A stretch of 64,000 bases of DNA from NCBI RefSeq assembly GCF_006715085.1, contig NZ_VFMM01000001.1, positions 2,914,001 to 2,978,000 of the forward strand, in the 5' to 3' direction. This stretch comes from Kribbella jejuensis. Lineage in GTDB: Bacteria; Actinomycetota; Actinomycetes; Propionibacteriales; Kribbellaceae. Of this stretch, positions 15,059 through 29,873 are shown piece after piece (the stretch's first letter is position 1; every line of letters begins with the position of its first letter). The notes beneath the pieces were generated by a model. The model saw only the letters and a list, made by a program, of their open reading frames with translations, was not told where the DNA came from and did not search any database. The position numbers and the translations under genes were made by a program.

Positions 15059-16729
15059 TCAGTTCTTCGGCGTCGTCGTCGGCGTGGTCCCGCCCTTGAC
15101 CCGGAACACCCAGAACCCGTCCGGGCCGACACCGTACAGGTTGTCAGCTGTCGGGACGTGCTGGCCGAGGGATCCGGCCGCGGAGTTCCACCCACCACCA
15201 TCGCCCCAGGGGCCGACGTACAGATAGGTGTGTCCCGGTCCGTTCAAGATGTCACCCGGCTTGTACCCGCCCGGTGGCTCGTTTTCCCAGTGGTCGTACT
15301 TCTCCGGGTGGTCGAGCATGTACTGCCGCTGGGTCGGGGTGTAGACCTGTGGGAAGTTCGGGTCGGCGCCGCTCATCCGCACCACCGTCGCGACGAACCG
15401 CCCACAGTCGGAGTACGGGTCGTCGAGCGACCGCCAGTTGTCCTTCGTGACGCCGTCGTACTTCTCGATCGCCGCGACGTACTCCGGCTTCGCCTCACTC
15501 GGGTCGACGCTCCAGTGCGCCTTCGGGCCTTGCGGCCAGGCGAGGTTCTTCGCGACCTCGGCGATGTTCCCGCTGCCCGCGCCGCACGGGTCCACCGGGG
15601 CCGAGGCGTCCTTCGGATCGGTCGCGCCGCCGCCGAACGTCGACAGCACGTGCCGCGCGTTCGCCTCGCGCTCGGCGTACGTCGGCGCGTTCGGGTCCTC
15701 GTGGCCGCCGAACCGCTCGTACTTGTCGGCGAAGACGTGCGCCGCGTCCTCGACCGTCGTGGCCGCCTTGAGGGCGTCACCGGCCGCCTTCTCCGGGGAG
15801 GACGTCTGGCCGAGGAGCTGTCTGTGCAGGAAGTCCAACTGGAACGCCAGCGAGGCGATCTGGTCGTCACTGGCGCCCGCGGTCCGCGACGGCTTGATCA
15901 TCTTGCCGGGCGGGGTCCACTGCACGATGCCCCAGCCGACGTTGCCGGGGGCGTCCACCACGTCCGCCGGTTTGGTCACGGTGCCGGGCGGGGTGCCCTG
16001 CTTCCGGCCAGGCTCGACGCCGGACTCGGCGATCATGTTGCCGACCACGCCCGCCGCCTGCTCCTTGGTGTAGCCCTGGGAGACGAAGTAATTGAAGGCC
16101 TTCTGCTGGTTGTTCGCACCCGACAGGTCGCCGCCGGGGCAGCCGCAGGCATTACTGCTGTCGTCACCGGTGTCCTGGACAACGAACGGGTTCGTGTCCA
16201 TGTGCGCGTTCTCGAGGTGGCCCTCGCCGTCCTTGTCGAGCCAGATCTCGAGGTGGAGGTGCGCGCCGGTCAGTCCGGGCGGGTCCTCGTCGCCGGAACC
16301 GGAAGTGGCGATCTGGTCGCCCTTCTTGACGGTCTTGCCGTTGCTGACCAGGACGTCCTTGAGGTACTTGTAGTGCGCCTCGGCCCCTTCTCCGAGCTTG
16401 AGCACGATCTCGTTCTTCGCGACCGAGGAGACGGTGCCGTCGGCAACCGCGTAGACCTTGCTGCCCTCGTCGACCTTGAAGTCCATCCCGGAGTGGCTGT
16501 TGCCGGTGTCCGGGTCGGGATCGGCCCAGTCCTGGGAGATCTCGTGCTTGTCGGTCGGCCACGCGAACGAGGCCGAGTCGGCGCCGTTCGCCGGAGACAT
16601 GGTGCAGGCCGCCGCCTCGGCGTTGATGTTCATCAACGAGCCCAGCAGGAACACGAGAGCGAGCGCGAGCGCAAAGGCCAGCAGAAACGGTGCCGCGAGG
16701 AGCGGCAGCAGTTTCTTGGCACCATCCAC
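15059..16729 (-). CDS. membrane-anchored three-domain cell-wall hydrolase (M23, lysozyme-like, NlpC/CHAP-like)
   Basis: A 556-residue protein with an N-terminal transmembrane helix (residues 7-32) and three outer hydrolase-like domains. Residues 55-165 are an M23 peptidase (H79 and D83 in HSGMDF; HLHLE at 157-161). Residues 205-345 match a phage-tail-lysozyme fold (AAGVVGNMIAESG with E235, then WGIVQW). Residues 395-510 look like an NlpC/P60 or CHAP amidase/peptidase (C442 in DCGRFVATVV, H500 in GPGHTYLYVG). The GTG at 16729 has GAGGAG 6 bases upstream; an earlier ATG would add 37 residues without sequence support. Such proteins open peptidoglycan in conjugative transfer modules, but no transfer genes are here. 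Confidence 0.82.
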   Translation of the reverse strand: MDGAKKLLPLLAAPFLLAFALALALVFLLGSLMNINAEAAACTMSPANGADSASFAWPTDKHEISQDWADPDPDTGNSHSGMDFKVDEGSKVYAVADGTVSSVAKNEIVLKLGEGAEAHYKYLKDVLVSNGKTVKKGDQIATSGSGDEDPPGLTGAHLHLEIWLDKDGEGHLENAHMDTNPFVVQDTGDDSSNACGCPGGDLSGANNQQKAFNYFVSQGYTKEQAAGVVGNMIAESGVEPGRKQGTPPGTVTKPADVVDAPGNVGWGIVQWTPPGKMIKPSRTAGASDDQIASLAFQLDFLHRQLLGQTSSPEKAAGDALKAATTVEDAAHVFADKYERFGGHEDPNAPTYAEREANARHVLSTFGGGATDPKDASAPVDPCGAGSGNIAEVAKNLAWPQGPKAHWSVDPSEAKPEYVAAIEKYDGVTKDNWRSLDDPYSDCGRFVATVVRMSGADPNFPQVYTPTQRQYMLDHPEKYDHWENEPPGGYKPGDILNGPGHTYLYVGPWGDGGGWNSAAGSLGQHVPTADNLYGVGPDGFWVFRVKGGTTPTTTPKN

Positions 16730-16830
16730 GGTCTGCTCCTCACAGGCTCGAGTGGCTTCCGCGCCGGTCCACGGAAGGGGCGACCACGTGAGGAAAATGG
16801 TGCCCGAAAACCGGGTCATCGTGTCGGGAG

Positions 16831-16880
16831 TTATCCACATGGATGATGGGTTCGCTGGCCGGATGACTCAGTTATCCACC
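16831..16880. promoter_or_regulatory. two DnaA-box-like sites upstream of the wall hydrolase
   Basis: TTATCCACA at 16831-16839 is identical to the Escherichia coli R1 DnaA box, and TTATCCACC at 16872-16880 differs by one base. They have the same orientation, 41 bp apart, and lie 100-150 bp before the hydrolase start. They may be chance, part of that promoter, or a relic of a replicon. Confidence 0.35.
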
Positions 16881-16963: not shown

Positions 16964-18175
16964 ATAGGAGCCTGTCGCAGAGGCCCGTCCATGTGCTGTC
17001 CGCCCGGACCGGCGGTGCGTGCCGTCCCGTGTCGGTTCGCACAACGGAAGGACGGCTGTCTCTACGATGACAGACCCGATCGGCGTTACTCACTTCGACA
17101 TCACCGACATCGCCGGATCAGGCGAAGTCGTCGGCGGGGTCGACACCCACTTAGACACCCACACCGCCGCCTGCCTGGATCACCTCGGCCGACTGCTTGC
17201 CCATGCCCAGTTCCCGGCCACCAACGCCGGGGAGAAGCAGCTACTGACCTGGCTGAGGGGTTTCGGCGACCTTGCCGTGGTCGGGTCGAGGGCACCGGCA
17301 GCTACGGCGCCGGCCTCGCCCGGCTGCTGACCTCCGAACACGTCCGGGTGGTGGAGGTGTCACGACCGAACCGGCAGAACCGCCGCCGCCGCGGCAAGTC
17401 CGACCCGATCGACGCTGAGGCCGCCGCCCGAGCGGTCCTGGCCGGCACCGCGACCGGCACACCGAAGACCCGTACGGGGATCGTGGAGTCCATTCGCGTC
17501 GTGCGTACCACCCGCTCCGGCGCGATCAAGGCCCGGACCGCCGCCATCAACACCTTGCGCCAGCTCGTCACCACCGCGCCGGAACCACTACGCGGACAAC
17601 TCGCCGGCCTCACCACCGACCAACTCATCCACGCCACCTCCGCACTACGCCCCACCACCGATCTGACCGACCCGGTCCAAGCCACCAAGACCGCGCTGCG
17701 CCGCCTCGCCCGCCGCTGCCAGCACCTGACCGAGGAAGTCACCGACGCCGACACCCAACTGCGCACTCTCACCCACCAGGCCGCACCGGCCCTGCTCGAA
17801 CGCTGCGGCCTCGGCCCCGAAACAGCAGGCCAACTCCTCACCACCGCCGGCGACAACCCCCACCGACTGCACAGCAACGCCGCCTTCGCGGCCGTCTGCG
17901 GGGCATCTCCGGTTCCCGTCGCCTCCGGCCGCACCCACCGCGTCCGCCTTAACCGCGGCGGCGACCGCCAAGCCAACACCGCCCTGCACACCATCGTCTT
18001 GGTCCGCATGCGCCACCACCAGCCCACCCGCGCCTACGTCGCCCGCCGACGCGCCGAAGGCAAAACCACCAAAGAAGTCATCCGCTGCCTCAAACGCAAC
18101 CTCTGCCGCGAACTCCTACCCCTCATCACCCAAGCGCTCACAACCCAGACTTGACGGCTCCGGGTCTATAGGAGC
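16964..18175 (+). mobile_element. IS110-family insertion sequence
   Basis: A 1.2-kb element containing one transposase gene and flanked by the same octamer ATAGGAGC at 16964-16971 and 18168-18175. IS110 elements lack long terminal inverted repeats, and short shared end sequences of this kind are typical, so I use the octamers as approximate ends. About 95 bp of non-coding sequence precedes the transposase, the position where IS110-group elements encode a guide (bridge) RNA; this stretch is GC-rich and can fold, but I did not find target-matching loops. It sits between the wall hydrolase promoter and a GntR gene, 64 bp from the latter. Confidence 0.75.
17067..18154 (+). pseudogene. IS110-type transposase, frameshifted
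   Basis: A DEDD-type recombinase split over two frames. The first frame starts at ATG 17067 and holds GVDTHLDTHTAACLDHLGRL and GFGDLAVVG. The second continues with VEGTGSYGAGLARLL, the DEDD motif SDPIDAEAAARAV and the C-terminal serine domain CGASPVPVASGRTHRVRLN. The break is at 17281-17290, where GGTCGGGTCGAG would restore the intact reading (V-V-G-V-E-G) if the G run were one base longer. The rest of the gene is undamaged, so the lesion is recent, or a sequencing error in a G run, or less likely a programmed -1 shift; no slippery heptamer is visible. Confidence 0.8.
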
Positions 18176-18239
18176 ATCAGGCCGGCCGCCGGGGCGGGGC
18201 GGGCGCGACAACCGGCCGGGTCTGGACGAGAATCCTCCC

Positions 18240-18908
18240 ATGTACGAACGGCTGCGGGTGGACCGCTCGACCACGGTGGACCGGGTGGTCGACGCGCTGC
18301 GTGCCGCCATGTTCGCGGGCGACCTGGAACCGGGTACGCCGCTGCGCGAGCAGCCGCTGGCCGAGGCGCTGGGGGTCGCGCGGAGCACGATCCGCGAGGC
18401 GATGACGATGCTGGTCACCGAGGGGCTCGCGGTCCGCGAGCCGAACAAGGGCGTCAGCGTCGCGATCCTGCACCCCGAGGCGGTGGCCGACATCTGCCGG
18501 GCCCGGTTCGTCCTGGAGTCAGCGGGCATCCGCGCCTGGTTCGACGCCGACGAGGCGGCCCGGGAGCGGGTCCGCGAGGCGATGCGGGTGTTCGCCGCGA
18601 CCGCCAAGGACGGCGCCGACCCGGAGGCGCTGACCGAGACCCATCTGGCCATCCACCGCAGCCTGGTCGCGCTGACCGGTAGCGAGCGGCTGATCGCGAC
18701 CGCCGACTCGGTCACCAGTGAGGCCCGGCTCGCGCTGGCCCGGGTGGACGCGCTGCGGCAGGACGCGCGCCAGCAGGTCGCCTCCCACCGCAAGCTCATC
18801 CGGCTGCTCGAACGCGGCGAGCTGGACGAGTGCGTCGACGAGCTCCGGCGGCACCTCGCCGGCGCCGAGGAGTCGCTCCTCGAGGCCATCGCGATGCCGC
18901 CGGGCTGA
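18240..18908 (+). CDS. GntR-family regulator, FCD (FadR) subfamily
   Basis: A 222-residue repressor-type regulator. The winged HTH is at residues 10-75 (LREQPLAEALGVARSTIREAM) and the helical FCD ligand domain at 85-215 (with HLAIHRSLVALTGSERL and a late ASHRKLIRLL that supply metal/ligand histidines). FCD regulators respond to organic acids and sugars. It converges on the last gene of the large sugar operon, whose enolase makes or uses a sugar acid, so it may sense an intermediate of that pathway, although the operon has its own GntR gene. An IS110 element ends 64 bp upstream and may have altered its promoter. Confidence 0.85.
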   Translation: MYERLRVDRSTTVDRVVDALRAAMFAGDLEPGTPLREQPLAEALGVARSTIREAMTMLVTEGLAVREPNKGVSVAILHPEAVADICRARFVLESAGIRAWFDADEAARERVREAMRVFAATAKDGADPEALTETHLAIHRSLVALTGSERLIATADSVTSEARLALARVDALRQDARQQVASHRKLIRLLERGELDECVDELRRHLAGAEESLLEAIAMPPG

Positions 18909-18926
18909 CCAGCAGTACCGTCAGAC

Positions 18927-20966
18927 CTACCGTCGGACCAGCCCGTCCGCGGTCACGTCGTACGTCCGGGAACCGACTCGGAGGCCGGTCAGGCGGGCGT
19001 TGGGGTCGAGCTGGGCGAGCTGTGGATTCGCGGTGACGGTCCCGTCGAGGGCTACCTCGATGCCGAAGATGCCTTCCAGGACCAGGCTGACCCATGCGCC
19101 GGAGGACGAGCAGGACCAGTCGATCAGGTACGGGAACTGTGACGGCGCCTTCGCCGCGCCACCTGCCATCGGGGGCTGCGCCTCCTCGACGAAGTGCGCT
19201 TGACCGCACGGCCCCTGGTTCGCGGTCTTCGCAAGACCGGGCAGCCAGTCCAGCAGTACGTCGCCACGCCCGAGCGCGAACAATGCGCGCCCCGCGTCGG
19301 CCGGCCACGCCGGGTACGCGCCGTTCCACTGGTGGTCCGGGCGGACGCTGTACGAGGCGTCCGCGTCGTACGGCGACAGTGCCCGCATCCAGGTAGGTGT
19401 CTGCAGCTCCTGCTGGAAGAACGTGACCATCTCCGCGCGCTGCGACTCGGACATGTCGTCCGGGATCGTCGTACCGACGATGTTGAAGTCGTAGCAGTGC
19501 CGTACCGGTACGAGCGTGCCGTCCGGTTGCCGGGCGTTCCAGAAGCCCTTGCCGTCCACGTACAGCTCGTTGACGTGCCCTGCCTGCGCAGACGCCTCCT
19601 TGCGCAGTAGCGCCGCACGGTCCGAGTCACCCGACCGGTCTGCGATCTCAGCGGCCACCCTCATGCACCAGACGTTGGCGGCGTTGAAGCTCGCCACCTC
19701 GTGCACATAGCTGCTCACACACTCCAGCAGGTTGTCGATGCCGCCGTAGTCTGCCAGAGCGTGCTCACCACGCAGCCCGCGCCAGGCGGTCGCCCAATCG
19801 TTTACGTGCTCCCCCACCGCCTTCGGGCCAACCGCGGCGTCCAGGAACGCGTCGTCGCCGGTGAAACGGACGTAGTCACGCACCAGGCGAGTCATGGCGA
19901 AGTCGTTGACGGAGTACCAGTAGCCGACCGGTCCGCCGGTCAGCCACTCGGTGCCGAAGTGCTTGTGGATGTCGAGGTCGATCCAGTGCTCGATGTGCTT
20001 GCGCATCGGCTCGGGGTCGAGCAGCGCATGCGTCAGCGAGGACAGGCTGTAGTCCCAGATGAACGTCGTGGTCTGCCAGTACCGCGGCATCAACGTGTCG
20101 TACGTCCGCCCGAGTACGCTCGCCGGGTTGTCACGACGGAACCAGATCACGCCGAGGACGCCCCACCAGTACAGCTTCCGCAGCGCCTCGTTGGACGTCT
20201 CGAGCACTGGCAGCGATCCGCTGAAGCCCTCGCTGGACGGGTCGAAGGCGTCGGCGATCGCCACGTCCCACATGCTCTCCGCGACCGAGATCACCGCCGG
20301 TACGTCGGCCACGCACACGTCGAAGTGCTCCGTGGCCTCCTCCAACGTTCCTGCCAGCACATGTACATACGACAGTCGCGCCTGCCCGGCGCGGTCCAGG
20401 ACAACTGTGGCCTCGAGCATCCCCCTGTCCACAGTGCTGGGTACGTCGAGGCCTTGCACGCTGACGGCGGATTTGGACGCCCCAGTGCCGACAACGCGAC
20501 TGTCTACAACTGTCAGCGTATTGGGCTCGGACGGGGGCTCCGGGCGCAACCATCCGGTCGACGAACGGGTCGCAGTACTTGCCAACGAAAGCCCAACCTG
20601 AACCGATCGACCCGGTTGCCCAGCAATGTCCAGTTGTACGACCACGGCTGGTCTGCCCGGGGCGCAGGCGGTGGTGGTGCGTACCTCCAGCCCGTCGACT
20701 GTGGTCGAGCGGATCACGCGGTCCGGGCGCCACACGACCTCGACGGTGCCACCGTACGAGCGGGCCAGGCGGCCGTCGACGTACAGCTGGCCGGTGATCG
20801 TGTCGCCGTGCGAGTACGGCGGGAAGTTCACGCTGCGGATCGCGACCACGTCGTGGTCGACCTGGGCGGTGCCGAGGAAGTTCGTCAGCCCCGGCGGGTT
20901 GAACATGTCGTCGTACGAGTGCGTGAGGACGTCGCTCGCCAGGTCGGCGGAACGCGGGATCGTCAT
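18927..20966 (-). CDS. six-hairpin-type glycoside hydrolase
   Basis: A 679-residue cytoplasmic protein with an N-terminal beta-sandwich (residues 1-210) and a large helical (alpha/alpha)6-barrel domain (about 260-620), the layout of glycogen-debranching-like and related glycosidases. Recognisable barrel segments are [51 protein letters not shown] and [22 protein letters not shown]-terminal beta segment follows. No signal peptide is present, so it should cleave an imported oligosaccharide. The ATG at 20966 overlaps the enolase stop by 4 bp; the long upstream open frame is antisense-like shadow inside the enolase gene. I cannot fix the GH family or sugar. Confidence 0.7.
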
Positions 20967-22177
20967 GACGGGTCTGCCCAATCGGTGTTCGGTAGCAGCG
21001 GGTACCAGTCCGGGCGGGCCGGATCGCGGTCGTACGGGTAGGGGCCGAGTTCGCGGAACAGTTCGGCGTACTCGGCGAGCTTGTCGCGGTCCAGTTCGAC
21101 GCCGAGTCCGGGCGCGTCCGGGACCGCGATCGCGCCGTCGACGTACGGAAGCTTGCCGCCGGCAATGATGTCGTCGCGCAGATGGTGGTAGTGCGCATCC
21201 GCGGCGAACGACAGGTTGGGAACCACCGCACCGAGGTGCAGCATGGTCGCGAGCTGGATACCGAGCTCGCCCGAGGAGTGCACCGCGACGCCGAGCTGGA
21301 ACGTCTCGCAGACGCCGGCCGCCTTGATACACGGACGGATCCCGCCCCAGAACGTGGTGTCGAGCAGGATCACGTCGACGGCCGGGTCGAGAACATTCGC
21401 GGCGAGTTGCTCGAAGTTCACCACGACGGTGTTGGTGGCGAGCGGGATCGGCGTGTTCTGGCGGACCCGGCGCATCCCGTTCAGTCCCCAGGTGGGGTCC
21501 TCGAGGTAGTCGTTGTCGAGGTCCTCGATACCGCGCGCGAACCGGATCGCCTCCTCGACGCTGAAGGCGCCGTTCGGATCGAACCGCACGCGATGCCCCG
21601 GGAACGCCTCCGCCAGCGCGCGGAAACACTCGCGCTCGTAGTCCGGCGGGAAAACGCCACCCTTCAGCTTGTGCACGCTGAATCCGTGCTCGTCGACCAG
21701 CGAACGCGCATGCGCGACCAGCTGCTCGGCGGTGCGGATCTCACCGGTACCGTCGTCCGCCGGATGCCGGAAGAACAGGTAGCTGGCGAACGGTACCCGG
21801 TTCCTGACCTTGCCGCCGAGCAACGCGTGCACGGGTACGCCGAGCTCACGGCCCTGCAGGTCCAGGCAGGCGAATTCAATTGCCGCTAGCAACTGAGTTC
21901 GGTTGTTGTACAGGCTCGCGGTCGGGTTGGCGAGCATCCAGCGCAACGCCTCGGTCCGGGCCGGGTCGTGGCCGACCAGGTACTCCTTCAGCCCGGCGAC
22001 CGCGGCCTCGGCGCTCTGTCCGCCGCCGCCCATCTCGCCCAGCCCGATCAGCCCGTTGTCGGCCTCGACCTCCACGACGGTCCGCACGAAGCGTCCCCAG
22101 TGCGCCCCGTTGCTGTGCCGCAGCGGCGCCTCCAGCGGCATCGTCACCGTGGTCGCGCGGACGTCGACGATCTTCAC
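20963..22177 (-). CDS. enolase-superfamily sugar-acid dehydratase (glucarate-dehydratase-like)
   Basis: A 404-residue enolase-superfamily enzyme. The active-site set follows the glucarate dehydratase branch: K170-x-K172 (VHKLKGG), metal ligands D200 (RFDPNGA), E226 (YLEDP) and N249 (ATNT), then D273 (LDTTFWGG) and H300 ([10 protein letters not shown]) forming the His-Asp dyad. Such enzymes remove water from an acid sugar to give a 2-keto-3-deoxy acid. The start is GTG at 22177, preceded by GGAGG and overlapping the SDR stop by 4 bp (GTGA); the longer open frame upstream is not used. It sits between a dehydrogenase and a glycosidase, which fits an oxidative sugar pathway. Confidence 0.86.
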
Positions 22178-22917
22178 TTCCGGCCCTCCGGCAGTACGAC
22201 GGGAAGCCCCGCGGTCAGCCCACCGTCGACCTTGACGTCGGCGCCGGTGACGAACGACGCGGCCGGTGAGGACAGGAAGTAGATGACCTCGGCAACTTCT
22301 CCCGGCGTCGCGACCCGGCCGAGCGGATGCGACCGGCCCCACTCGGCGACCACCTCGTCGGTCGATCGCCCGTTGCCGAACTGCGCGGCCGACGTCCGCA
22401 GCATGGGTGTGTCCACCGACCCCGGGCAAACGGCGTTCACCCGGATGCCATCGGCGGCGTGGTCCACAGCCATCGCGCGGACGAGGCTCAACAGCGCGCC
22501 CTTGCCCATCGAGTACGCGGCGACGCTCGTCTGCGCGGCGTACGCCTGCACGGACGCCACCACCACGACACTCCCGCCGCGAGGAAGTTTCGGGACGAAC
22601 GCCTGGCAGGCGAAGAACACGCCGCCGACATTGACGGCCATCACCTCGTCGTAGACGGCGGCGGGCGTATCGACAACAGTTCCGTAGCGCTGGACGCCCG
22701 CGGCACAGACAAGGGCGTCCACTTCGCCGATCTCTTCCGCGGCGGCTGCCAGCGCGGCCCGGTCGGCAACGTCTACCTGCAGGCCGGTGACCTGTCCATC
22801 GAGTGCAGAGATCTCGCGATCAAGGACGACAACGTGGTCGCCGGCGGCGAGGAAGCGCTCCACGGCACCGCGCCCGATGCCGGCGGCACCACCTGTCACG
22901 ACGACTGTTCTTGGCAT
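22174..22917 (-). CDS. classical SDR dehydrogenase (sugar oxidoreductase)
   Basis: A 247-residue short-chain dehydrogenase. It has the cofactor motif [10 protein letters not shown] (residues 8-17), an aspartate after the second strand (VLDRE) that favours NAD, the structural motif CAAG, catalytic S (VVVASVQAY), and Y-x-x-x-K (YSMGKGAL), and the closing [11 protein letters not shown] typical of oligomeric SDRs. In this operon it most likely oxidises a sugar or sugar lactone precursor before dehydration by the following enolase-type enzyme, to which it is coupled by a 4-bp overlap. It starts 10 bp after the ABC permease stop. The substrate is inferred only from context. Confidence 0.85.
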
Positions 22918-22927
22918 ATGTGTCCTC

Positions 22928-23743
22928 TCAGAACTGACCCAGGGCGAGGCCCCGGGAGAAGAAGCGTTGGGCGGCGAGGAACAGGATGACGGTGGGGAGC
23001 GAGACGAGCAGGCCGCCGGCGAGGACGGTCGGCAGCGCGGCGCCGCCGTACGTGCTCTGCAGGCCGGTGAGGGCCGGCATGATTGGGCGGACCGAGTCGG
23101 ACTGGCTCAGCGTGAGGCCGAGCAGCAGGTCGTTCCAGACGAAGGTGGCCTGCAGGATGAAGATCGCGGCCAGCGCCGAACCCGCCATCGGCAGGTAGAT
23201 GCTGCGGAAGATCCGGAACAGCCCGCCGCCGTCGACCACCGCGGCCTCGAACACGCTACGCGCGATCCCAGTGAAGAAGTTCCGCATCACGAACGCCGAG
23301 AACGGCACGCTGATCGCGGTGTACACGACGATCATCCCAATCCGGGTGTCGTACAGCCCGGAGTTCGCGTACCCGGAGAACAGCGGCATCAGGATCATTT
23401 GCAGCGGAAATATCGTCCCGCCGAAGATGAACACGAACCACAGGAACCCACGCTTCAGTTTCAGTACGACGATCGCGTATCCGGCGGCCGCGCCGACCAG
23501 GACCGCGAGCACCGGCGCGATCACGCTGTACATCGTCGTCGACACCAACGTGTCGCTGAGCGCCGCCTTGCTCCACGCGTCCCCGAAGTTCGCGAACAGG
23601 TCGAACCCCGCCGGCTTCCAGACGGTCTTCGCGTCGTAACCGTCGACGGACTTCGACGCATTGACGACCAACAGATAAACGGGTGCCAGCCACAACAGAC
23701 CGAGCACGATCAGCACCGCGGTCTTAACCCTGCTCACGGGCAT
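22928..23743 (-). CDS. carbohydrate ABC transporter permease (MalG type)
   Basis: A 271-residue inner-membrane subunit with six predicted helices and the EAA loop VFEAAVVDGGGLFRIFRSIYLP (cited here in parts: VFEAAVVDGG, FRSIYLPM) that contacts the ATPase. Belongs to the carbohydrate uptake-1 family, MalG-like half. It overlaps the partner permease by 20 bp and precedes the SDR by 10 bp. No ATPase gene is in the operon, so a shared MsiK-type ATPase must be supplied from elsewhere, which is usual for actinomycete sugar importers. Confidence 0.9.
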   Translation of the reverse strand: MPVSRVKTAVLIVLGLLWLAPVYLLVVNASKSVDGYDAKTVWKPAGFDLFANFGDAWSKAALSDTLVSTTMYSVIAPVLAVLVGAAAGYAIVVLKLKRGFLWFVFIFGGTIFPLQMILMPLFSGYANSGLYDTRIGMIVVYTAISVPFSAFVMRNFFTGIARSVFEAAVVDGGGLFRIFRSIYLPMAGSALAAIFILQATFVWNDLLLGLTLSQSDSVRPIMPALTGLQSTYGGAALPTVLAGGLLVSLPTVILFLAAQRFFSRGLALGQF

Positions 23744-24650
23744 CCCCCAACTGGTAGCGCAGGTACAGGATCGACGCGGCGAACGTCACCAGGCTCAGGA
23801 ACAGCGCGATCGCCGCGCCCTGGCCGTAGTCGTTCAGCACGAACGTCTCCTTGTACATGGACAGCGCGAGGGTCTCCGACGACGTACCCGGCCCACCTTG
23901 GGTCATCACCCACACCACGTCGAACGTCTTCAGACTGCCGACGATCGACAAGCCGACAACCACCGTGGTGATCGGACGCAGTTGTGGCCAGAGATGAAAG
24001 CGGAAGAGCTTGAAGCCGTCGGCACCGTCCAAACGCGCGGCCTCGAGCGGTTCGCTCGGAATCGATTGGAGGCCTACGACGAACAGCAGGGCGTTGACGC
24101 CGGCGGCCTGCCAGGTGACGGCGATGATCATCATGATCGTGTTGCCGGGGCCTGCCTGCAGCCAGCCGGTGTGGGCACCCGGGAGCCCGAAGAACCCGAG
24201 TGCCTGACCCAGTGCGCCGTCCGGCTGCAGTACGAAGCCCCAGATGACGCCGACGGCCACACCGGAGATCGCGTACGGCAGCAGGAACGGCAGCCGCAAC
24301 CAGGTGCCCCACTTGTGCCCGTACGTCAGCACCGCGACGAGCAGGCCGAGCGCGACCGGCAGCGTGACCATGCCGACCACCCACAGCAGCGTGTTGACCA
24401 GCGCCCCGACCAGGTCGGGGTCGCTGAACATCGCCTTGTAGTTCGCCAGCCCGGACCACACCGGTGACGCGAGCCCGTCGTAGGAGGTGAAGCTGACGTA
24501 CGTCGTCCACAGGAACGGGAGGTACAGCAGCAGCGCGACGACAGCTACCGCGGGCAGTCCGAACAGCGGTGCCGCCCGGGCACCGGTCCGGTCCGGGCGT
24601 TGACTCCGCGCCCGGACCTTGACCGGTGACCGCTCGATCGTGGAGGTCAC
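23724..24650 (-). CDS. carbohydrate ABC transporter permease (MalF type)
   Basis: A 308-residue membrane permease with a polar 30-residue N-terminus and six helices. The EAA loop reads EPLEAARLDGADGFKLFRFH, and the segment VWVMTQGGPGTSSETLALSMY with YKETFVLNDYGQGAA is characteristic of UgpA/MalF-like subunits. It pairs with the permease encoded next and is coupled to the binding-protein gene by a 4-bp overlap (ATGA). Substrate is set by the binding protein; context suggests an oligosaccharide whose sugars are then oxidised. Confidence 0.9.
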   Translation of the reverse strand: MTSTIERSPVKVRARSQRPDRTGARAAPLFGLPAVAVVALLLYLPFLWTTYVSFTSYDGLASPVWSGLANYKAMFSDPDLVGALVNTLLWVVGMVTLPVALGLLVAVLTYGHKWGTWLRLPFLLPYAISGVAVGVIWGFVLQPDGALGQALGFFGLPGAHTGWLQAGPGNTIMMIIAVTWQAAGVNALLFVVGLQSIPSEPLEAARLDGADGFKLFRFHLWPQLRPITTVVVGLSIVGSLKTFDVVWVMTQGGPGTSSETLALSMYKETFVLNDYGQGAAIALFLSLVTFAASILYLRYQLGDAREQG

Positions 24651-25924
24651 TTCTGCTTGGCCCAGTACGCGTCCGCCTCGGCCTGGATCTTCTGCAGGCC
24701 CGGCATCGGGTCACCCGGCTTGGTCACGAACGCGCCGAACACCTCCAGCGCCTTGTTGGCCACCGGCACCGGCGTCGCCTCGAACCACCGGTTGATCAGC
24801 CGGTACCCGTCGCCGCCGACGTCCTTGTTGAGCGCCGCCAGCCCCGGGTCCTTGATCTCGGCCTTCGGGTTGAACGACAGGTCGCCGCGCGAGTTCGCCC
24901 AGGCGGTCTGCGCCTGCGGCGTGACCCACCAGTCGGTCCACTTCTTCACCGTCGACGCGTGATCGCTCGCCGCGGCCGAGCAGACCGGCCCGGTCTCGAA
25001 GATCATCGAGGTCTTGGGCAGCGCGGGGTTCACGTTCGGGATGATGAAGAAGTCGTAGTCGGTGCCGGCCTTCATCTTCAGCGTGTTCAGGTTGCCGCTG
25101 AACCAGGTGCCGAAGTTCTCCATCGCGACGTCGCCGTTCTTCAGCTGCGCCTGCGGCTCGGTCTTCGAGCCCGGGTCGCTGAAGTAGCCGGCGTCGATCA
25201 TCTTCTTCCACTCGTTCATCACGTCGACGACACCCTGGTCGGTGTACTTCGCCTTACCGGTGGCGAGTGCGTCGTACAGGTCGGGGTCCTTGCCCGCGAG
25301 CAGGGTCTCGAACCAGACGAACGAGAACAGGATGTTGGTCTGGTAGAACGGCTTCACGCCGATCGCCTTGACCTTGTCGGCGACCTTCAGCAGATCGGCC
25401 CAGGTCTTCGGGGTCTCGGTGATCCCGGCCTTCTTGAAGACGGCCTTGTTGTAGTACATCACCCAGTAGCCGGCGTTCAGCGGTACGCAGTACTGCTTGC
25501 CGTCGAAGGTGAAGTACTGCTTGAGCTGTTCCGGGATGTTGCCGTCAGCAACAGCCTTGGTCCACTGGTCGGTGGTCTCGGCAACGAGCTTCTGGTCCAC
25601 CAGATCCTGAAGTTCCTTGCCGGTGTGCCAGGTGAACAGGTCGGCCTTCTCCTTGGTCCGGAACGAGGACCGGATGAACGCGGTGTACGTGTTCGAGTCG
25701 GAGTACCCGACCGGTTCCATGCCGACGCCGATATCCTTCTTGCTGGCCGCGCCGACCTGGGTGAACGCGTCCTTCCAGCCGCCCTTGTCGTTGTAGAACT
25801 TCAGCGAGTCGACCGGCTTGTCCTCGCCCTTCTTCGGCGCGGCGGCACCACCACCGCCGCCACAGGCGGACAGAGCCAGCGCTCCGGCCACGGCCAACGC
25901 CGTCAGCGCTTTCCGGTGAATCAT
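24647..25924 (-). CDS. sugar-binding lipoprotein of an ABC importer
   Basis: A 425-residue extracellular solute-binding protein (family 1). The signal peptide ends in a lipobox, LALSAC with Cys 21, followed by a glycine-rich linker. The body is the two-lobed periplasmic-binding fold: DLFTWHTGKELQDLVDQ, PLNAGYWVMYYNKAVFKKAG, and GDVAMENFGTWFSG are conserved family segments, and the aromatic residues W/Y/F around them fit sugar stacking. It is the first transport gene in the operon, 15 bp after the GntR regulator, and is translated coupled to the MalF-type permease. Confidence 0.92.
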   Translation of the reverse strand: MIHRKALTALAVAGALALSACGGGGGAAAPKKGEDKPVDSLKFYNDKGGWKDAFTQVGAASKKDIGVGMEPVGYSDSNTYTAFIRSSFRTKEKADLFTWHTGKELQDLVDQKLVAETTDQWTKAVADGNIPEQLKQYFTFDGKQYCVPLNAGYWVMYYNKAVFKKAGITETPKTWADLLKVADKVKAIGVKPFYQTNILFSFVWFETLLAGKDPDLYDALATGKAKYTDQGVVDVMNEWKKMIDAGYFSDPGSKTEPQAQLKNGDVAMENFGTWFSGNLNTLKMKAGTDYDFFIIPNVNPALPKTSMIFETGPVCSAAASDHASTVKKWTDWWVTPQAQTAWANSRGDLSFNPKAEIKDPGLAALNKDVGGDGYRLINRWFEATPVPVANKALEVFGAFVTKPGDPMPGLQKIQAEADAYWAKQK

Positions 25925-25939
25925 GGTGTTCCTCTCAGC

Positions 25940-26647
25940 TCAGGGTTGCTGAAGTTTTTCGTTGATGACGGCAAGGACGCCGTCCAGGTGCTCGCGGGTG
26001 AGCAGCTCGGCCAGGTCGGGGTCACCGGACCGGATCGCGTCGTAGATCGCCCGGTGTTCGTCCAGGTCGGCCTGGCGGTCGCCGTGGATGTGCAGGATCT
26101 CCAACTGCTCCCGGGCGTTCACGACGGTCACGGACTCGACCACCTCGGCCAGGGTCGCGTTGCCGGACGCCTGGGCGAGTGAGCGGTGGAAGTCCATGTT
26201 CACCTCGGCCAGCTGCGCGTGGTCGCCGGAGGCGATCAGCTCGGCCGCAGCCTCGAGGTCCTTCGCCATCTGCTCCAGCGCGGTCTCCGCACGAGTCCTG
26301 GCGGCCAGTGCCGCAACAGGCGGTTCGATCAGTGCACGTGCCTGCAGCAGCTCCACCAACCGGTCAGGGCTCGGCGCCAGCGCCAGGGGGTTCGCCAGCA
26401 CCAAGCGGCCGACGTTCGGACCCACGTAGACACCAGAGCCGTGCCGGAGCTCGACAGCCCCGGTAGCCTCCAGCCGGCGCAGGGCCTCGCGGACAGTCGG
26501 TACGGCGACCTTGAAGCGCTCCGCGAGCGACCGTACCGCCTCGAACTGGTCCCCCGGCGCCAGCTTGCGCTCCTCGATCAGCGTGAGCATCGACGTCGCC
26601 AGGTCGTCCAGCAGACTCCGCCGTACGACGCCTCCCGATGCGCTCAC
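25940..26647 (-). CDS. GntR-family regulator of the sugar operon (FadR subfamily)
   Basis: A 235-residue regulator with an N-terminal winged HTH (VRSLAERFKVAVPTVREALR, residues 40-60) and a C-terminal FCD domain with the family's histidines (MDFHRSLAQASGNATL, EHRAIYDAIRSGD). It is the second gene of the operon: its start overlaps the stop of the secreted-protein gene by 4 bp and the binding protein follows. The operon promoter carries an inverted repeat directly before the first start codon, so this protein is the best candidate for its repressor, making the operon self-regulated. Confidence 0.87.
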   Translation of the reverse strand: MSASGGVVRRSLLDDLATSMLTLIEERKLAPGDQFEAVRSLAERFKVAVPTVREALRRLEATGAVELRHGSGVYVGPNVGRLVLANPLALAPSPDRLVELLQARALIEPPVAALAARTRAETALEQMAKDLEAAAELIASGDHAQLAEVNMDFHRSLAQASGNATLAEVVESVTVVNAREQLEILHIHGDRQADLDEHRAIYDAIRSGDPDLAELLTREHLDGVLAVINEKLQQP

Positions 26648-27750
26648 TTGGTCGCCGCCAGGGTGACCGAGAGGAAGCGCGGACGGTAGATGCTCACGTC
26701 GCCGTACAGCTCGTCACTGACCAGGCTGTTGACGTTGTAGCTCACCAGGAGCGACGTACCCTGCCGCAGGTCCGGGTGCTCGTGGGAGTTGTACGTGATG
26801 ATGTTCCCGCCGGTCTCCGGGGTCTGGTACAGCTCGACCGGCTTCACCCACGGGCCGGTGGGCGAGCAGGAGAAGTACCCGAGGATGCTCTTGCTGAAGA
26901 GCTCCTTGGTGTTATGCGTGACCAAGAGGTAGCCGTCACCCCATCGGGTCACACTGTGCTCGTTGGCAACGCCCTCGAGTACCCGGGTCGACGCGGCCTC
27001 GTCAGCGGACCAGCCTGTGCCGGTCCAGTACTCCCAGGGCTTCGCGGTGAGGTCGTCGCCACGCACGCGGGCGACATGCTGGTACTTCGACGCGCCCAGG
27101 TCCTCGACTCCGTAGATGTAGGTGTAGCCCCGGTCGCGCAGCAGCCAGCCGGACCACTGCACGTTCGCAGCGGACGGGATCGGCGTCAGCGACTTGAGCT
27201 TGAACGTCTTGCTGTCGAAACGCGCCAGGTAGTTGCTGGCCCAGCGCCAGTCCCACTGACCCGTACCGGTCTTCTGGAAACGCAGTGCGACCACGTCGAG
27301 GTCCTGGCCGGCGTGGCTGGTCTGGGCTGCGCCGAACCAGTACCAGCCGTCGGACGGCGGCGGGACCAGCGCGGTCGGGTTGGTCGCCGTACCGCCGGTG
27401 ACCGTCTTCAGGTCGGTGCCGTGCTGGATCACGAACGAGTTGTTGATGAACGGCGCCGTGGTCGGACGGCTGCCGTCCGGGTTCACCGGGCCGAGGAACG
27501 TGTCCGAGAAGACCCACGCCGTCCGGCCGCCGGGCAGCGCGACGGAGTACGTGCTGTCGGCGCCCGTCCAGCCCTTGCCGGTGTTGCTGTAGGCGTTCAG
27601 CAGGTTCTCGGGCGCGGCGTGCGGCGTCGTCCGCGCGGTCCAGTTCGTGGTGACCGCACCGCAGGTCGATGCGGCGGCAGGGACCGCGGGCACGGCAAGG
27701 CCCGCTGCCGTCAGGGACAACGCGAGAAGCACACCGAAGCGTCGTGACAT
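26644..27750 (-). CDS. secreted propeller-type glycan-binding or glycosidase-like protein (DUF4185-like)
   Basis: A 368-residue exported protein with a signal peptide (residues 1-27, ending AAAS). The mature part has repeated Trp- and Asp-rich strands (AWVFSDTFLGPVNPDG, WYWFGAAQTSHAGQDL, YTYIYGVEDLG, HSVTRWGDGYLLVTHNT, NIITYNSHEHPD) in the style of five-bladed propellers related to GH43 and DUF4185/DUF5005 proteins. It is the first gene of the eight-gene sugar operon and is likely to bind or trim the polymer outside before uptake. I cannot assign catalytic residues with certainty. The ATG at 27750 lies about where transcription should begin. Confidence 0.75.
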   Translation of the reverse strand: MSRRFGVLLALSLTAAGLAVPAVPAAASTCGAVTTNWTARTTPHAAPENLLNAYSNTGKGWTGADSTYSVALPGGRTAWVFSDTFLGPVNPDGSRPTTAPFINNSFVIQHGTDLKTVTGGTATNPTALVPPPSDGWYWFGAAQTSHAGQDLDVVALRFQKTGTGQWDWRWASNYLARFDSKTFKLKSLTPIPSAANVQWSGWLLRDRGYTYIYGVEDLGASKYQHVARVRGDDLTAKPWEYWTGTGWSADEAASTRVLEGVANEHSVTRWGDGYLLVTHNTKELFSKSILGYFSCSPTGPWVKPVELYQTPETGGNIITYNSHEHPDLRQGTSLLVSYNVNSLVSDELYGDVSIYRPRFLSVTLAATK

Positions 27751-27787
27751 GAAAATGATCAGATCACTTGGTCATTTTCGATGTCAA
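27751..27787 (-). promoter_or_regulatory. leaderless promoter overlapped by an inverted repeat
   Basis: On the minus strand TTGACA (27787-27782), an 18-base spacer and TCTGAT (27763-27758) place the transcription start at or next to the A of the ATG at 27750. No ribosome-binding site precedes the ATG. Perfect 8-bp arms GAAAATGA and TCATTTTC (27751-27758 and 27772-27779), with two further matching pairs inside, cover the -10 and spacer, an ideal place for a repressor. The GntR protein encoded second in the operon is the obvious candidate. Confidence 0.6.
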
Positions 27788-27853
27788 TACCCAGGGTCTG
27801 ATCAGGGTGTGTACGGAGCGTGCTTGCGCCTCGTGGGTGGGAGGATCGACGGC

Positions 27854-28240
27854 ATGAAGAACTTGATCATCAGGTTGCTGGCGAACGCGGTCGCGCTGGC
27901 GATCGCCAGCTGGATCGTCAGCGGTATCACCCTGCAGGGCGCGACCACCGGCAAGCGGGTGCTCACGCTGCTGATCGTGGCCGCGATCTTCGGGATCGTG
28001 AACGCGATCGTGAAGCCGGTGGTGAAGGTGCTGTCGTTCCCGCTGCTGATCCTGACCCTCGGCCTGCTGACCTTCGTGATCAACGCGGTGATGCTGCTGC
28101 TGACCTCCTGGATCACCGGCAAGCTGGACGTCCAGTTCCACGTCAACGGGTTCTGGTCCGCGCTGTTCGGCGCGTTGATCATCAGCGTCGTCGGCATGAT
28201 CATCAACGCGGTGCTGCCGGAGAAGGCCGAAATCCACTGA
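27854..28240 (+). CDS. phage-holin-family small membrane protein
   Basis: A 128-residue protein of four hydrophobic helices (residues 5-25, 32-52, 58-85 and 105-122) with short loops, matching the bacterial phage-holin family 4 (PF04020-like; FGIVNAIVKPVVKVLSFPL is the family's central motif). These are ordinary chromosomal membrane proteins of unknown role despite the name. The ATG at 27854 follows GGAGG at 8 bases; the frame is open further upstream only as a shadow of the secreted-protein gene. It is followed after 2 bases by a protein-tyrosine phosphatase gene, so the two are co-transcribed. Confidence 0.82.
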   Translation: MKNLIIRLLANAVALAIASWIVSGITLQGATTGKRVLTLLIVAAIFGIVNAIVKPVVKVLSFPLLILTLGLLTFVINAVMLLLTSWITGKLDVQFHVNGFWSALFGALIISVVGMIINAVLPEKAEIH

Positions 28241-28242
28241 GC

Positions 28243-28683
28243 ATGCGCGTCGAGATCGTCTGCAGCGGGAACATCTGCCGCTCGCCGATGGGCGAGGTGG
28301 TACTGCGCGCGAAGCTGGCGGAGGCGGGCATCGACGGCGTGCTCGTCTCCAGCTCGGGGACGGGCGGCTGGCACGTGGGCGACGGGATGGACCCGCGCGC
28401 GGCGGCGGCGCTGCGACGCCGTGGGTACGACGGGAGCTCGCATCGCGCCCAGCAGTACCAACGGTCCTGGGACCGGGACCTGGTGCTCGCGATGGACTCC
28501 GGCCACCTGGAAACGCTGAACCGGTACGGCGCCGCGGCGCAGTTGTTCGCGCGCGACGACGTACCGGATCCGTACTACGGCGAGGACGACGGCTTCGACG
28601 AGGTCCTGGCGCAGATCGAGGAGGCGGCCGACGCCTGGGTCGACCGCCTGCGCTCAGACCTGACCGAGCGCCGTCAGGCCTGA
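28243..28683 (+). CDS. low-molecular-weight protein-tyrosine phosphatase
   Basis: A 146-residue phosphatase that removes phosphate from tyrosine in proteins, or possibly from arginine. The P-loop CSGNICRSP gives the nucleophile C7 and R13 (C-x5-R-S), and the general acid is in DDVPDPYYG (D-P-Y). Length and C-terminal helix are normal. The ATG at 28243 lies 2 bases after the holin-like gene's stop. Its 3' end overlaps that of the convergent phosphofructokinase gene by 10 bp. In actinomycetes such phosphatases act in cell-envelope or polysaccharide control; the target here is not known. Confidence 0.92.
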   Translation: MRVEIVCSGNICRSPMGEVVLRAKLAEAGIDGVLVSSSGTGGWHVGDGMDPRAAAALRRRGYDGSSHRAQQYQRSWDRDLVLAMDSGHLETLNRYGAAAQLFARDDVPDPYYGEDDGFDEVLAQIEEAADAWVDRLRSDLTERRQA

Positions 28684-29873
28684 CCGATCTCCGACTTCAG
28701 GCTGACGAACCACTCCACGCCGGCGTCGAACTCCTTGCCGCCGGCGATCCGCGGGAACTCGATCGCGCGCAACTCGTCGCCGCGCTCCTCGTCGTGGCCG
28801 ACCACACCGGACTCACCGCGCAGTGCCGCGTCCACGGCGTAGTCGGTGCACTCCTTGATCAGTGCGAGGTCGCGGTCGTTGGCCGCGGCCGAGCGGGAGA
28901 AGTACCCGCTCTTCTGCACCATCGTCTTCTCGGCGCCGATCCGCTCCGCGAACTGCTTCGCGAACCACGCGCCCGGGTTGATCGTGTCCAGCTTGACGTG
29001 CCCGAACGGATCCCGCCCGACCTCCTCGCCGCGCGCCTCCATCTCGGCCACGATCGACGACACACCGGCACCCTCGGACAGGAAGATGTTCACGCAGTCC
29101 TCCTCGTCCATGACCTTGCGCAGCCGCTCCGCCTCGGCGTCCAGGTCGATCGTTGCCTCTGGCACGTACACGGCGTGCACCGACCAGCCGCCCTTGGTCA
29201 GGCCGATGCCCGGGTTCCACTCCTGCTCGTCGACCCACTGCTGGTAGGCCTGCGCGGTGGCGGCGGTCAGCCAGCCGCAGTTGCGGCCCATCACCTCGTG
29301 GACGATCAGCATCCGCGGGTTCGAGCTGTGCTCGGCGATGATGTTCTTGGCGAACAGCGCGCCCTGCTCGGCCGCGGTCCAGGCGCCCAGGCTCTGCCGG
29401 ATCGGGACCACGTCGTTGTCGATGGTCTTCGGCAGGCCGACCACGGTCAGGTTGTAGTCGTGCTCCTGCAGGTACGCCGCGAGGTCGGCGGCGGTGGTGT
29501 TGGTGTCGTCCCCGCCGATCGTGTGCAGGACGTCGACGCCGTCCGCGACCAGCCGCTCGGCCGCGACCTGGAGGGCGTTCTGCCCGTCCTCGATCAGGCC
29601 GCGCTTGACCAGGTCGGCGGTGTTGGTGAGCTTCACCCGGCTGTTGCCGATCGGGCTGCCGCCGAACTTGTGCAGCAGCGCCGCCTTCTCCCGGACCTCC
29701 GGCGTCACGGTCAGGAACCGGCCGCTGAGCAGGCCGTGGTACCCGTTCAGGTAGGCGATGATCTCCACGTCGGGCGCCACTTCGGTGTAGCGCTCGATCA
29801 GTCCGCCGACGGCGGACGACAGGCAGGGCGCGAGCCCGCCGGCGGTGAGCAGGGCAACTCTACGGACAGCCAT
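28674..29873 (-). CDS. pfp: pyrophosphate-dependent phosphofructokinase
   Basis: A 399-residue enzyme interconverting fructose 6-phosphate and fructose 1,6-bisphosphate in glycolysis. Two residues mark use of pyrophosphate instead of ATP: GGDDT at 120-124 (ATP enzymes have GGDGS) and PKTIDND at 148-154 (ATP enzymes have PGTIDND). Other signatures are SSAVGGLIERY and MGRNCGWLTA. The ATG at 29873 is chosen over an earlier in-frame ATG because MAVRRVALLTAGGLAP is the family's normal start and a GAGGA precedes it. PPi-type enzymes are reversible and known from other actinomycetes. The gene stands alone. Confidence 0.93.
   Translation of the reverse strand: MAVRRVALLTAGGLAPCLSSAVGGLIERYTEVAPDVEIIAYLNGYHGLLSGRFLTVTPEVREKAALLHKFGGSPIGNSRVKLTNTADLVKRGLIEDGQNALQVAAERLVADGVDVLHTIGGDDTNTTAADLAAYLQEHDYNLTVVGLPKTIDNDVVPIRQSLGAWTAAEQGALFAKNIIAEHSSNPRMLIVHEVMGRNCGWLTAATAQAYQQWVDEQEWNPGIGLTKGGWSVHAVYVPEATIDLDAEAERLRKVMDEEDCVNIFLSEGAGVSSIVAEMEARGEEVGRDPFGHVKLDTINPGAWFAKQFAERIGAEKTMVQKSGYFSRSAAANDRDLALIKECTDYAVDAALRGESGVVGHDEERGDELRAIEFPRIAGGKEFDAGVEWFVSLKSEIGQA

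Follow-up and report, generated by a model that had tools for sequence, protein, structure and literature searches.

An operon of Kribbella jejuensis that may serve the use of a mannose-containing glycan

A run of eight open reading frames (ORFs) was analysed in Kribbella jejuensis within a window of 64,000 nucleotides, the whole stretch of DNA under study (contig NZ_VFMM01000001.1, positions 2,914,001 to 2,978,000), to which all coordinates refer. The ORFs, all on the minus strand, run in series from 27750 down to 18927 and appear to code for a locally controlled system for a glycan whose sugar is probably D-mannose. A reading made earlier from the DNA by itself (the sequence-only reading) had described an eight-gene operon with overlaps of 4-20 bp or very short gaps, and both the ORFs and their spacings were confirmed. 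From the first to the last gene, the junctions are a 4-bp overlap, a 15-bp gap, a 4-bp overlap, a 20-bp overlap, a 10-bp gap and two further 4-bp overlaps, making five overlaps (4-20 bp) and two gaps (10 and 15 bp). The eight genes are likely to be co-transcribed. In this order, they are:

26644..27750, minus strand: predicted secreted propeller glycosidase of the DUF4185 (GH183-like) type, 368 aa (PF13810; D65, D83, E264)
25940..26647, minus strand: GntR/FCD (FadR-type) regulator, probable local repressor (PF07729 E 1e-25, PF00392 E 1e-14)
24647..25924, minus strand: sugar-binding lipoprotein, SBP_bac_8 (PF13416 E 7.8e-31; lipobox read by eye)
23724..24650, minus strand: sugar ATP-binding cassette (ABC) permease A (PF00528 E 4e-16)
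22928..23743, minus strand: sugar ABC permease B (PF00528 E 3.3e-10)
22174..22917, minus strand: short-chain dehydrogenase/reductase (SDR), aldose 1-dehydrogenase, probable D-mannose dehydrogenase (PRK06398 best NCBIfam model; structures 3vtz and 2dtd/2dtx)
20963..22177, minus strand: enolase-superfamily aldonate dehydratase, probable D-mannonate dehydratase (PF13378 E 4.7e-58; GudD alignment)
18927..20966, minus strand: cytosolic (alpha/alpha)6 glycosidase- or phosphorylase-like protein, 679 aa (predicted model; GH94/GH78/GH63 folds)

The regulator combines a GntR winged helix-turn-helix with an FCD domain. No ATPase gene for the ABC importer was present among the eight genes.

All eight genes were found in the same order in each of 20 loci fetched from the same genus. 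The 679-aa glycosidase-like protein was matched in 27 of 36 same-genus genomes searched (one match being weak), in one of 21 other genomes (weakly, E 5.7e-5) and in 27 of 394 genomes of the class, a count that includes the window's own genome and a few weak matches; its nearest named relatives are from Kribbella. Scanning of the GTDB genome collection yielded 149 confirmed relatives, of which the best 80 loci, same-genus loci included, were used for all gene counts below. A gene was counted anywhere in the stretch, up to 10 kb on each side, some loci being cut by contig ends, and the tests of neighbouring genes were restricted to the families named here. The core operon genes recur in families beyond that of Kribbella. 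Each permease gene was present in 77 of the 80 loci and the gene for the sugar-binding protein in 75; DUF4185 was found in 64, all of which have a copy within 3 kb of a core gene. The SDR was counted in 41 loci, in 37 of these within 1 kb of the enolase-type gene or permease B, and the enolase-type gene in 40. Regulators were of the GntR type in 38 loci and of the LacI type in 36. A few of the SDR, LacI and permease copies sit away from the operon. In 11 of the 80 loci, all from Microbacterium (e.g. L124:197-967), a gene for a beta-keto acid cleavage enzyme (PF05853) lies upstream of the LacI gene and divergent from it. A second locus of genome G265 (L084:2-7047) contains a glycosidase-like paralogue, 49% identical, among genes for an enolase-type enzyme, an SMP-30/gluconolactonase-type protein, DUF6807, a cupin and UPF0261; judged by its genes, this cluster looks like another sugar-acid pathway.

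The loci differ in the catabolic module that accompanies the importer and the glycosidase-like gene. A protein resembling phosphomannose isomerase (PMI) is encoded in 37 of the 80 loci and a ROK kinase, which the PMI-like module usually includes, in 34. The enolase-type gene occurs without the PMI-like gene in 39 loci and the PMI-like gene without the enolase-type gene in 36, four loci having neither and one (L162) having both; the enolase-type protein of this last locus is 26% identical and is encoded about 7 kb downstream, so that a different gene is probably involved. The PMI-like protein (608 aa at L083:7043-8869) resembles class I mannose-6-phosphate isomerase in its C-terminal half; its first 230 or so residues, which matched no family, are also conserved in relatives. 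A profile of ten members retrieved Bacillus subtilis ManA (1qwr, E 2.4e-10) and 1zx5 (E 5.1e-8) from the PDB sequences. This profile search alone gave a clear match: the protein itself had no hits among Pfam models (E up to 0.001) or NCBIfam models (E up to 0.1), and when the threshold was relaxed to E 1, three of the ten members showed PMI_typeI_cat, the best at 0.034.

Two loci contain further enzymes of hexose metabolism. In Tessaracoccus, a ManA gene (TIGR00218, 166 bits against a cut-off of 116.2) starts at the last base of the stop codon of the glycosidase-like gene. In Salinispora, the interval between an esterase gene and the glycosidase-like gene contains an aldolase of the KDPG/KHG type (PF01081, 110 against 27.8 bits; KDPG, 2-keto-3-deoxy-6-phosphogluconate) and a kinase that scores best with 2-dehydro-3-deoxygluconokinase (NF052444, E 1e-88, 297.6 bits, under the cut-off of 400). 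The K. jejuensis genome has two PF01081 (KDPG-aldolase-family) genes elsewhere, unlinked to the operon.

The exchange of modules was followed on a quick tree of 72 glycosidase-like sequences, made after ten of the 80, all from Kribbella, had been thinned out and those of the window and L084 added. This tree has four changes of the module label, at least three of them forced by its starred branches, against about 23 for shuffled labels. On this comparison of sequences, the same importer and glycosidase-like protein were probably combined repeatedly with the one or the other module, and one monosaccharide is thus suggested as the substrate of both. A kinase with a PMI would be expected for mannose rather than for glucose or arabinose, and a route through 2-keto-3-deoxygluconate (KDG) for mannonate or gluconate; D-mannose would fit both modules. 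Esterases were also present in the loci of relatives (AXE1-type in 13 of the 80 loci, GDSL in 13, and SASA) and hint at an acetylated glycan. One locus from a metagenome-assembled genome of the Frankiaceae (L168:2237-16135) carries three DUF4185 genes, a SASA esterase and gluconolactonase-like and PMI-like proteins around its glycosidase-like gene.

The two oxidative enzymes of the window were compared with characterised families. Among 223 NCBIfam models, the best for the SDR was PRK06398, an aldose dehydrogenase (201.8 bits, under its cut-off of 341). Its nearest solved structures are 3vtz (E 9e-48), annotated as glucose 1-dehydrogenase, and 2dtd/2dtx (E 9.9e-40), which we take to be Thermoplasma AldT (Ta0754). 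Upon alignment with Escherichia coli GudD, the dehydratase was found to keep K170/K172 (KxK), the D273/H300 dyad and the metal ligands D200/E226/N249, so that it should be active as judged from these residues. H32 is also kept, and the GudD substrate residues N27, N341 and R422 are replaced by H21, S302 and Y382, the same H/S/Y being present in all five family rows aligned, while the loop near T103 is five residues shorter. R422 and its neighbours presumably hold the distal carboxylate of glucarate; among the papers listed by a literature search, none with 'Arg422' was found. The enzyme scored 168.2 bits with glucarate dehydratase (TIGR03247, cut-off 828.7) and 89.4 bits with ManD (NF043051, cut-off 550), and it was under the cut-off of all 16 NCBIfam models matched. 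Catabolism of glucarate was rejected on the TIGR03247 score and the change of GudD R422 to Tyr. The earlier assignment as a glucarate-type dehydratase needs correction, the enzyme being by these tests no glucarate dehydratase. The substrate is read as a mono-acid (an aldonate); by its scores the enzyme would not be a member of ManD, though it may have a similar function.

No Pfam or NCBIfam model was matched by the 679-aa protein at E up to 0.001, and no signal peptide was evident by eye. Its predicted model (pLDDT 83.2, pTM 0.88) consists of an N-terminal beta-sandwich and an (alpha/alpha)6 barrel, in agreement with the cytosolic six-hairpin protein first supposed. This architecture is common to GH94, GH78 and GH63, from which the protein differs in that no family model was reached. 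In the model, residues 525-550 and 586-616 have a pLDDT below 50 and the block 411-420 averages 56, and therefore the presumed active site is partly poorly modelled. GH78 enzymes gave the top VIA rows (8iwf: Z 28.7, 4.9 Å, 443 residues), and GH94 phosphorylases could be aligned from end to end (Z about 27, about 600 residues, 4.0-4.5 Å), with 8hob first in Foldseek. Z values of this size do not separate these families.

That the cytosolic protein acts as a GH94-like phosphorylase and not as a hydrolase, using phosphate to split an imported disaccharide or oligosaccharide so that the free acceptor sugar feeds the SDR or the kinase, is a possibility of less than even odds, and one that is compatible with the use of mannose. 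Besides the full-length alignment, the best match in a profile search with the family was chitobiose phosphorylase (E 0.0029), and Glyco_hydro_94 was the commonest weak Pfam match among 22 members (five members, best E 0.0019), whereas MGH1-like_GH was matched by two of them with the better E value of 2.1e-6 and the top VIA rows belong to GH78 hydrolases. The window protein itself matched none of the GH94, GH63 and MGH1-like Pfam models at E up to 1. Alignment by hhalign of the family with E. coli YgjK gave nothing usable, nor did alignment with MGH1-like proteins of the same genus, a crude set with L179 in the wrong frame. D411 (in GxDN) and E594 (in FVE) are common and resemble motifs of GH63/MGH1-type hydrolases (e.g. 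L178), which speaks against a phosphorylase. This pair was considered as the catalytic one and dropped: D411 is present in 76 of 81 sequences (20 of 22) and E594 in 77 of 81 (21 of 22), while D406 and E415 are invariant (81/81 and 22/22). The phosphorylase was weighted higher because of this difference. Enzymes of GH94 have a D...GES-type motif.

For the first gene product, the secreted propeller-like protein proposed earlier is supported. The protein passes PF13810 (44.1 bits, cut-off 39.5) and a signal peptide was read by eye. In 2023, DUF4185 proteins were shown to include endo-D-arabinanases, now GH183 (PMC10115798, PMC10509167). A profile of the window family retrieved the uncharacterised structure 4hbs (BACOVA_04882, E 9.7e-16) and the GH183 enzyme EndoMA1 (8hhv, E 8.7e-9), and a search with the single sequence found 4hbs and missed EndoMA1 at E up to 1. 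The predicted model (pLDDT 90.7) matches 4hbs with a VIA Z of 32.6 (2.6 Å, 315 residues, 24% identity) and EndoMA1 (8ic1) with 28.8 (2.9 Å, 296 residues, 15% identity), followed by GH159 (20.4) and the Mycobacterium tuberculosis endo-D-arabinofuranase AraH2 (8an0, 19.9). D65, D83 and E264 are invariant in 27 DUF4185 sequences; the two aspartates, at the places of the nucleophile and the acid/base, stand 18 residues apart, also in L169. The protein thus has in common with EndoMA1 and 4hbs the fold, the Asp pair with its spacing and a third carboxylate, Glu. In EndoMA1 the carboxylates are D33/D51/E243 and the Glu is required for activity (PMC10509167), while the third Glu is broadly dispensable in DgGH4185b (PMC10115798). 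Differences from EndoMA1 are the low identity, the nearest structure being 4hbs instead, and the loss of R198, the arginine that binds substrate at subsites -3/-2, which in the profile alignment faces Ala beside a gap, two residues from a conserved Lys. This loss bears on the substrate and not on membership of GH183. Its sequence makes the secreted protein a divergent relative of DUF4185/GH183; from the residues and the model, it probably shares the GH183 chemistry but may act on another substrate. Two more DUF4185 proteins are encoded in the genome, one of which matches the family model far better (276.3 bits), and a search of phage genomes with the window protein found nothing.

An operon for D-arabinan (of arabinogalactan or lipoarabinomannan) was the first idea, in which the DUF4185 protein would be an endo-D-arabinanase, the cytosolic protein an exo-D-arabinofuranosidase and D-arabinose would be oxidised by the SDR and the enolase-type enzyme to 2-keto-3-deoxyarabinonate. 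It was demoted after the PMI-like protein, ManA, KDG kinase and KDPG aldolase had been found in relatives, and we now hold it improbable. The family assignment and the three carboxylates agree with it, as do EndoMA1 and AraH2 among the fold matches of the secreted protein and ExoMA2 (8ic6) among those of the cytosolic one. Against D-arabinan, no GH172 (DUF2961) or GH116 match was obtained for any of the eight proteins; the PMI-like protein with its usual ROK kinase and the ManA locus suit mannose, and the kinase and aldolase types of Salinispora a six-carbon acid. The arginine replaced by Ala and the failure of the single sequence to retrieve EndoMA1 point the same way. Use of D-glucose or of a mixture, with the SDR as glucose dehydrogenase and the enolase-type enzyme as gluconate dehydratase, would fit the annotation of 3vtz and the formation of KDG from gluconate, but is very improbable as it gives no need for a PMI-like protein or ManA beside the same importer and glycosidase-like protein.

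The start of the operon was compared in 21 upstream regions, from the window and the 20 same-genus loci. The promoter region contains the following features:

27782..27787, minus strand: -35 hexamer TTGACA, kept in 21 of 21 same-genus upstream regions
27758..27763, minus strand: -10 hexamer TCTGAT (in relatives TCAGAT, TTAGAT, TCTAAT and others)
27756..27766, minus strand: probable GntR operator TGATCTGATCA over the -10 (conservation of TGATCWGATCA)
27751..27779, minus strand: 8-bp arms GAAAATGA/TCATTTTC and the region between them, exact in the window

The arrangement of TTGACA (27787-27782), a spacer of 18, TCTGAT (27763-27758) and an ATG at 27750 was as first described. A generic sigma-70 scan of 17000-29000 found no promoter (shuffle mean 0.6), missing this one because TCTGAT is without A at position 2; the promoter call is therefore based on conservation and not on a consensus score. 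After TTGACA, the block AATGACCAAGTGATC(T/A)GATCATTTTC is unbroken in 19 of the 21 regions, with small changes in L054 and L061, and the -35 and -10 hexamers are 17 or 18 apart. The ATG is at the same place in 15 of the 21 (in L061 it lies one base nearer), so that the leaderless start proposed earlier may hold for most but not for all. No Shine-Dalgarno-like sequence was seen at the DUF4185 start, whereas the starts of the sugar-binding protein and the SDR have one.

The arms GAAAATGA (27779-27772) and TCATTTTC (27758-27751) had been described as perfect arms that cover the -10. They are exact and span it, but mostly flank it, and they are perfect in just 10 of the 21 regions and so are not the conserved element. 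From the comparison of sequences, that element is the inner palindrome TGATCWGATCA, which, one mismatch being allowed, lies upstream of the operon in 29 of the 38 loci with a GntR-type regulator and is absent there from all 35 LacI-type loci examined. A search for the relaxed pattern TGAT[CT][AT][AG]ATCA, up to 260 bp upstream of the GntR or DUF4185 gene, gave a site in 30 of the 38 GntR-type loci (15/15 in Kribbella, 15/23 in others). An in-frame start codon follows at 1-9 nt in 23 of these 30 and at 4-6 nt in 21, and a -35-like hexamer (at least 5/6, best of spacers 16-19) stands at 17-18 nt in 22, including 7 of the 15 outside Kribbella. The site precedes DUF4185 in the 15 Kribbella loci and Salinispora, and the regulator itself in the other 14. 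In the 7.5-Mb genome, GTGATYWGATCA occurs once, at the operon, and its reversed control not at all. An imperfect inverted repeat of 11 nt (27751-27761 / 27769-27779, 91%) and the conserved AATGACC make a second, overlapping half-site possible. The best reading of these conserved elements is that the repressor occludes a promoter that is leaderless or almost so.

Beyond the end of the operon, a second FCD-GntR gene (18240..18908, plus strand) is convergent with it at a distance of 18 bp. This gene accompanies the operon in 19 of the 20 same-genus loci, the remaining one (L068) ending with its contig, and L060 is the single locus in which it has the direction of the operon. It adjoins a gene for an IS110-family transposase (16991..18154, plus strand; NF033542, 134.5 bits, cut-off 140). 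At 15059..16840 on the minus strand, phage tail lysozyme (PF18013) and peptidase M23 domains are joined in one protein, by these domains probably a cell-wall hydrolase.

Taken together, the preferred explanation, with a probability of about 0.6, is a locus under local control that serves the use of a mannose-containing and sometimes acetylated glycan via D-mannose, mannonate and KDG. It builds on the gene set, the synteny, the active-site residues, the operator-like site with the position of the start codon and the module exchange, as read from the sequences compared. The secreted GH183-like propeller enzyme would cut the glycan outside the cell, and the sugar-binding protein and two permeases would import its fragments, probably energised by a shared ATPase whose gene lies elsewhere. 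In the cytosol, the (alpha/alpha)6 protein would free D-mannose by hydrolysis or phosphorolysis, as both alternative modules imply. The SDR would convert mannose to mannonolactone, the route beginning without phosphorylation, the enolase-superfamily enzyme would form KDG from mannonate, and KDG kinase and KDPG aldolase would complete the pathway. The FCD-GntR protein on TGATCWGATCA over the -10 would shut out RNA polymerase until released by a pathway sugar or sugar acid. In outline this is the scheme of the sequence-only reading (secretion, uptake, cleavage and oxidation, with a repressor over a leaderless promoter), which comparative evidence backs and narrows to D-mannose, with details corrected.

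Several observations weigh against this explanation. The ATG is missing from its place in 6 of the 21 same-genus regions and the relaxed operator pattern from 8 of the 38 GntR-type loci. The exchanged loci L131, L165 and L168, as well as L084 and L163, are on long branches of the tree and their places are unsure; L165 also has a UxuA-type mannonate dehydratase, perhaps of a separate hexuronate cluster. One phosphomannose isomerase gene lies elsewhere in the genome, so mannose could go there, and KDG could come from gluconate as well. The enolase-type enzyme, the SDR and the KDG kinase of Salinispora all score under the NCBIfam cut-offs of the named enzymes, and in the SDR of the window Gln replaces the Glu of 3vtz and 2dtd at a residue we take to be mannose-recognising. 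Finally, the known activity of DUF4185 is the cleavage of D-arabinofuranosides, and many of the fold matches below GH183 are furanosidases.

The explanation through D-mannose can be carried further, to a view held only tentatively and against the odds: that the 679-aa protein founds a new family of cytosolic enzymes, hydrolases or phosphorylases, that cleave mannosides, that its secreted GH183-type partner left D-arabinan for a glycan with mannose, that kinase-isomerase and oxidative mannonate modules were swapped several times at this locus across Actinomycetota and that the D-mannonate dehydratase of the latter module is of the glucarate-dehydratase group.

The locus is of the Gram-positive glycan utilisation kind, with parts that have been published separately (GH183 and the oxidative mannose route). 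As described in PMC10509167, the D-arabinan locus of Microbacterium arabinogalactanolyticum shares secreted DUF4185 endo-enzymes, an SBP_bac_8 ABC importer, cytosolic exo-glycosidases and the Gram-positive layout. It differs in its GH172 and GH116 partners, absent among the eight Kribbella proteins, which have instead an (alpha/alpha)6 protein outside named families and an SDR-dehydratase module. The oxidative mannose route of Thermoplasma acidophilum consists of AldT, which oxidises mannose, ManD and KDG aldolase (PMC6901390). Here too an aldose dehydrogenase is followed by a sugar acid dehydratase leading to KDG, and the Kribbella SDR resembles Thermoplasma dehydrogenases of solved structure; the archaeal route is presented, as far as that account goes, as enzymes and not as a glycan-uptake operon, and the Kribbella dehydratase is nearer to the glucarate dehydratase group than to ManD. 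With local repressors of the FCD/GntR type (FadR subfamily) the operon has in common the domain pair and a short palindromic site beside the gene, and it differs in the placing of a TGATCWGATCA-like site, which in 21 of the 38 GntR-type loci is followed 4-6 nt later by an in-frame start codon. No description of the operon, the 679-aa family or the module exchange was recognised in the titles and abstract openings listed on DUF4185/GH183, six-hairpin glycosidases, mannose/mannonate enzymes, glucarate dehydratase and leaderless FadR operators. The claim that no described pathway has exactly this gene set accordingly stands for the combination but not for its parts, the oxidative mannose route and GH183 being already described in the literature seen.

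These results give a testable sugar, D-mannose, to a glycosidase-like family with 149 confirmed relatives that is unnamed in Pfam and NCBIfam. They suggest that some DUF4185 proteins are not D-arabinanases, which matters since the whole domain is filed as GH183. The compact regulatory unit, with one repressor, one genomic site and an apparently leaderless promoter, may be of use for expression work in actinobacteria, and the joining of one uptake system to two alternative catabolic routes would amount to a natural experiment.

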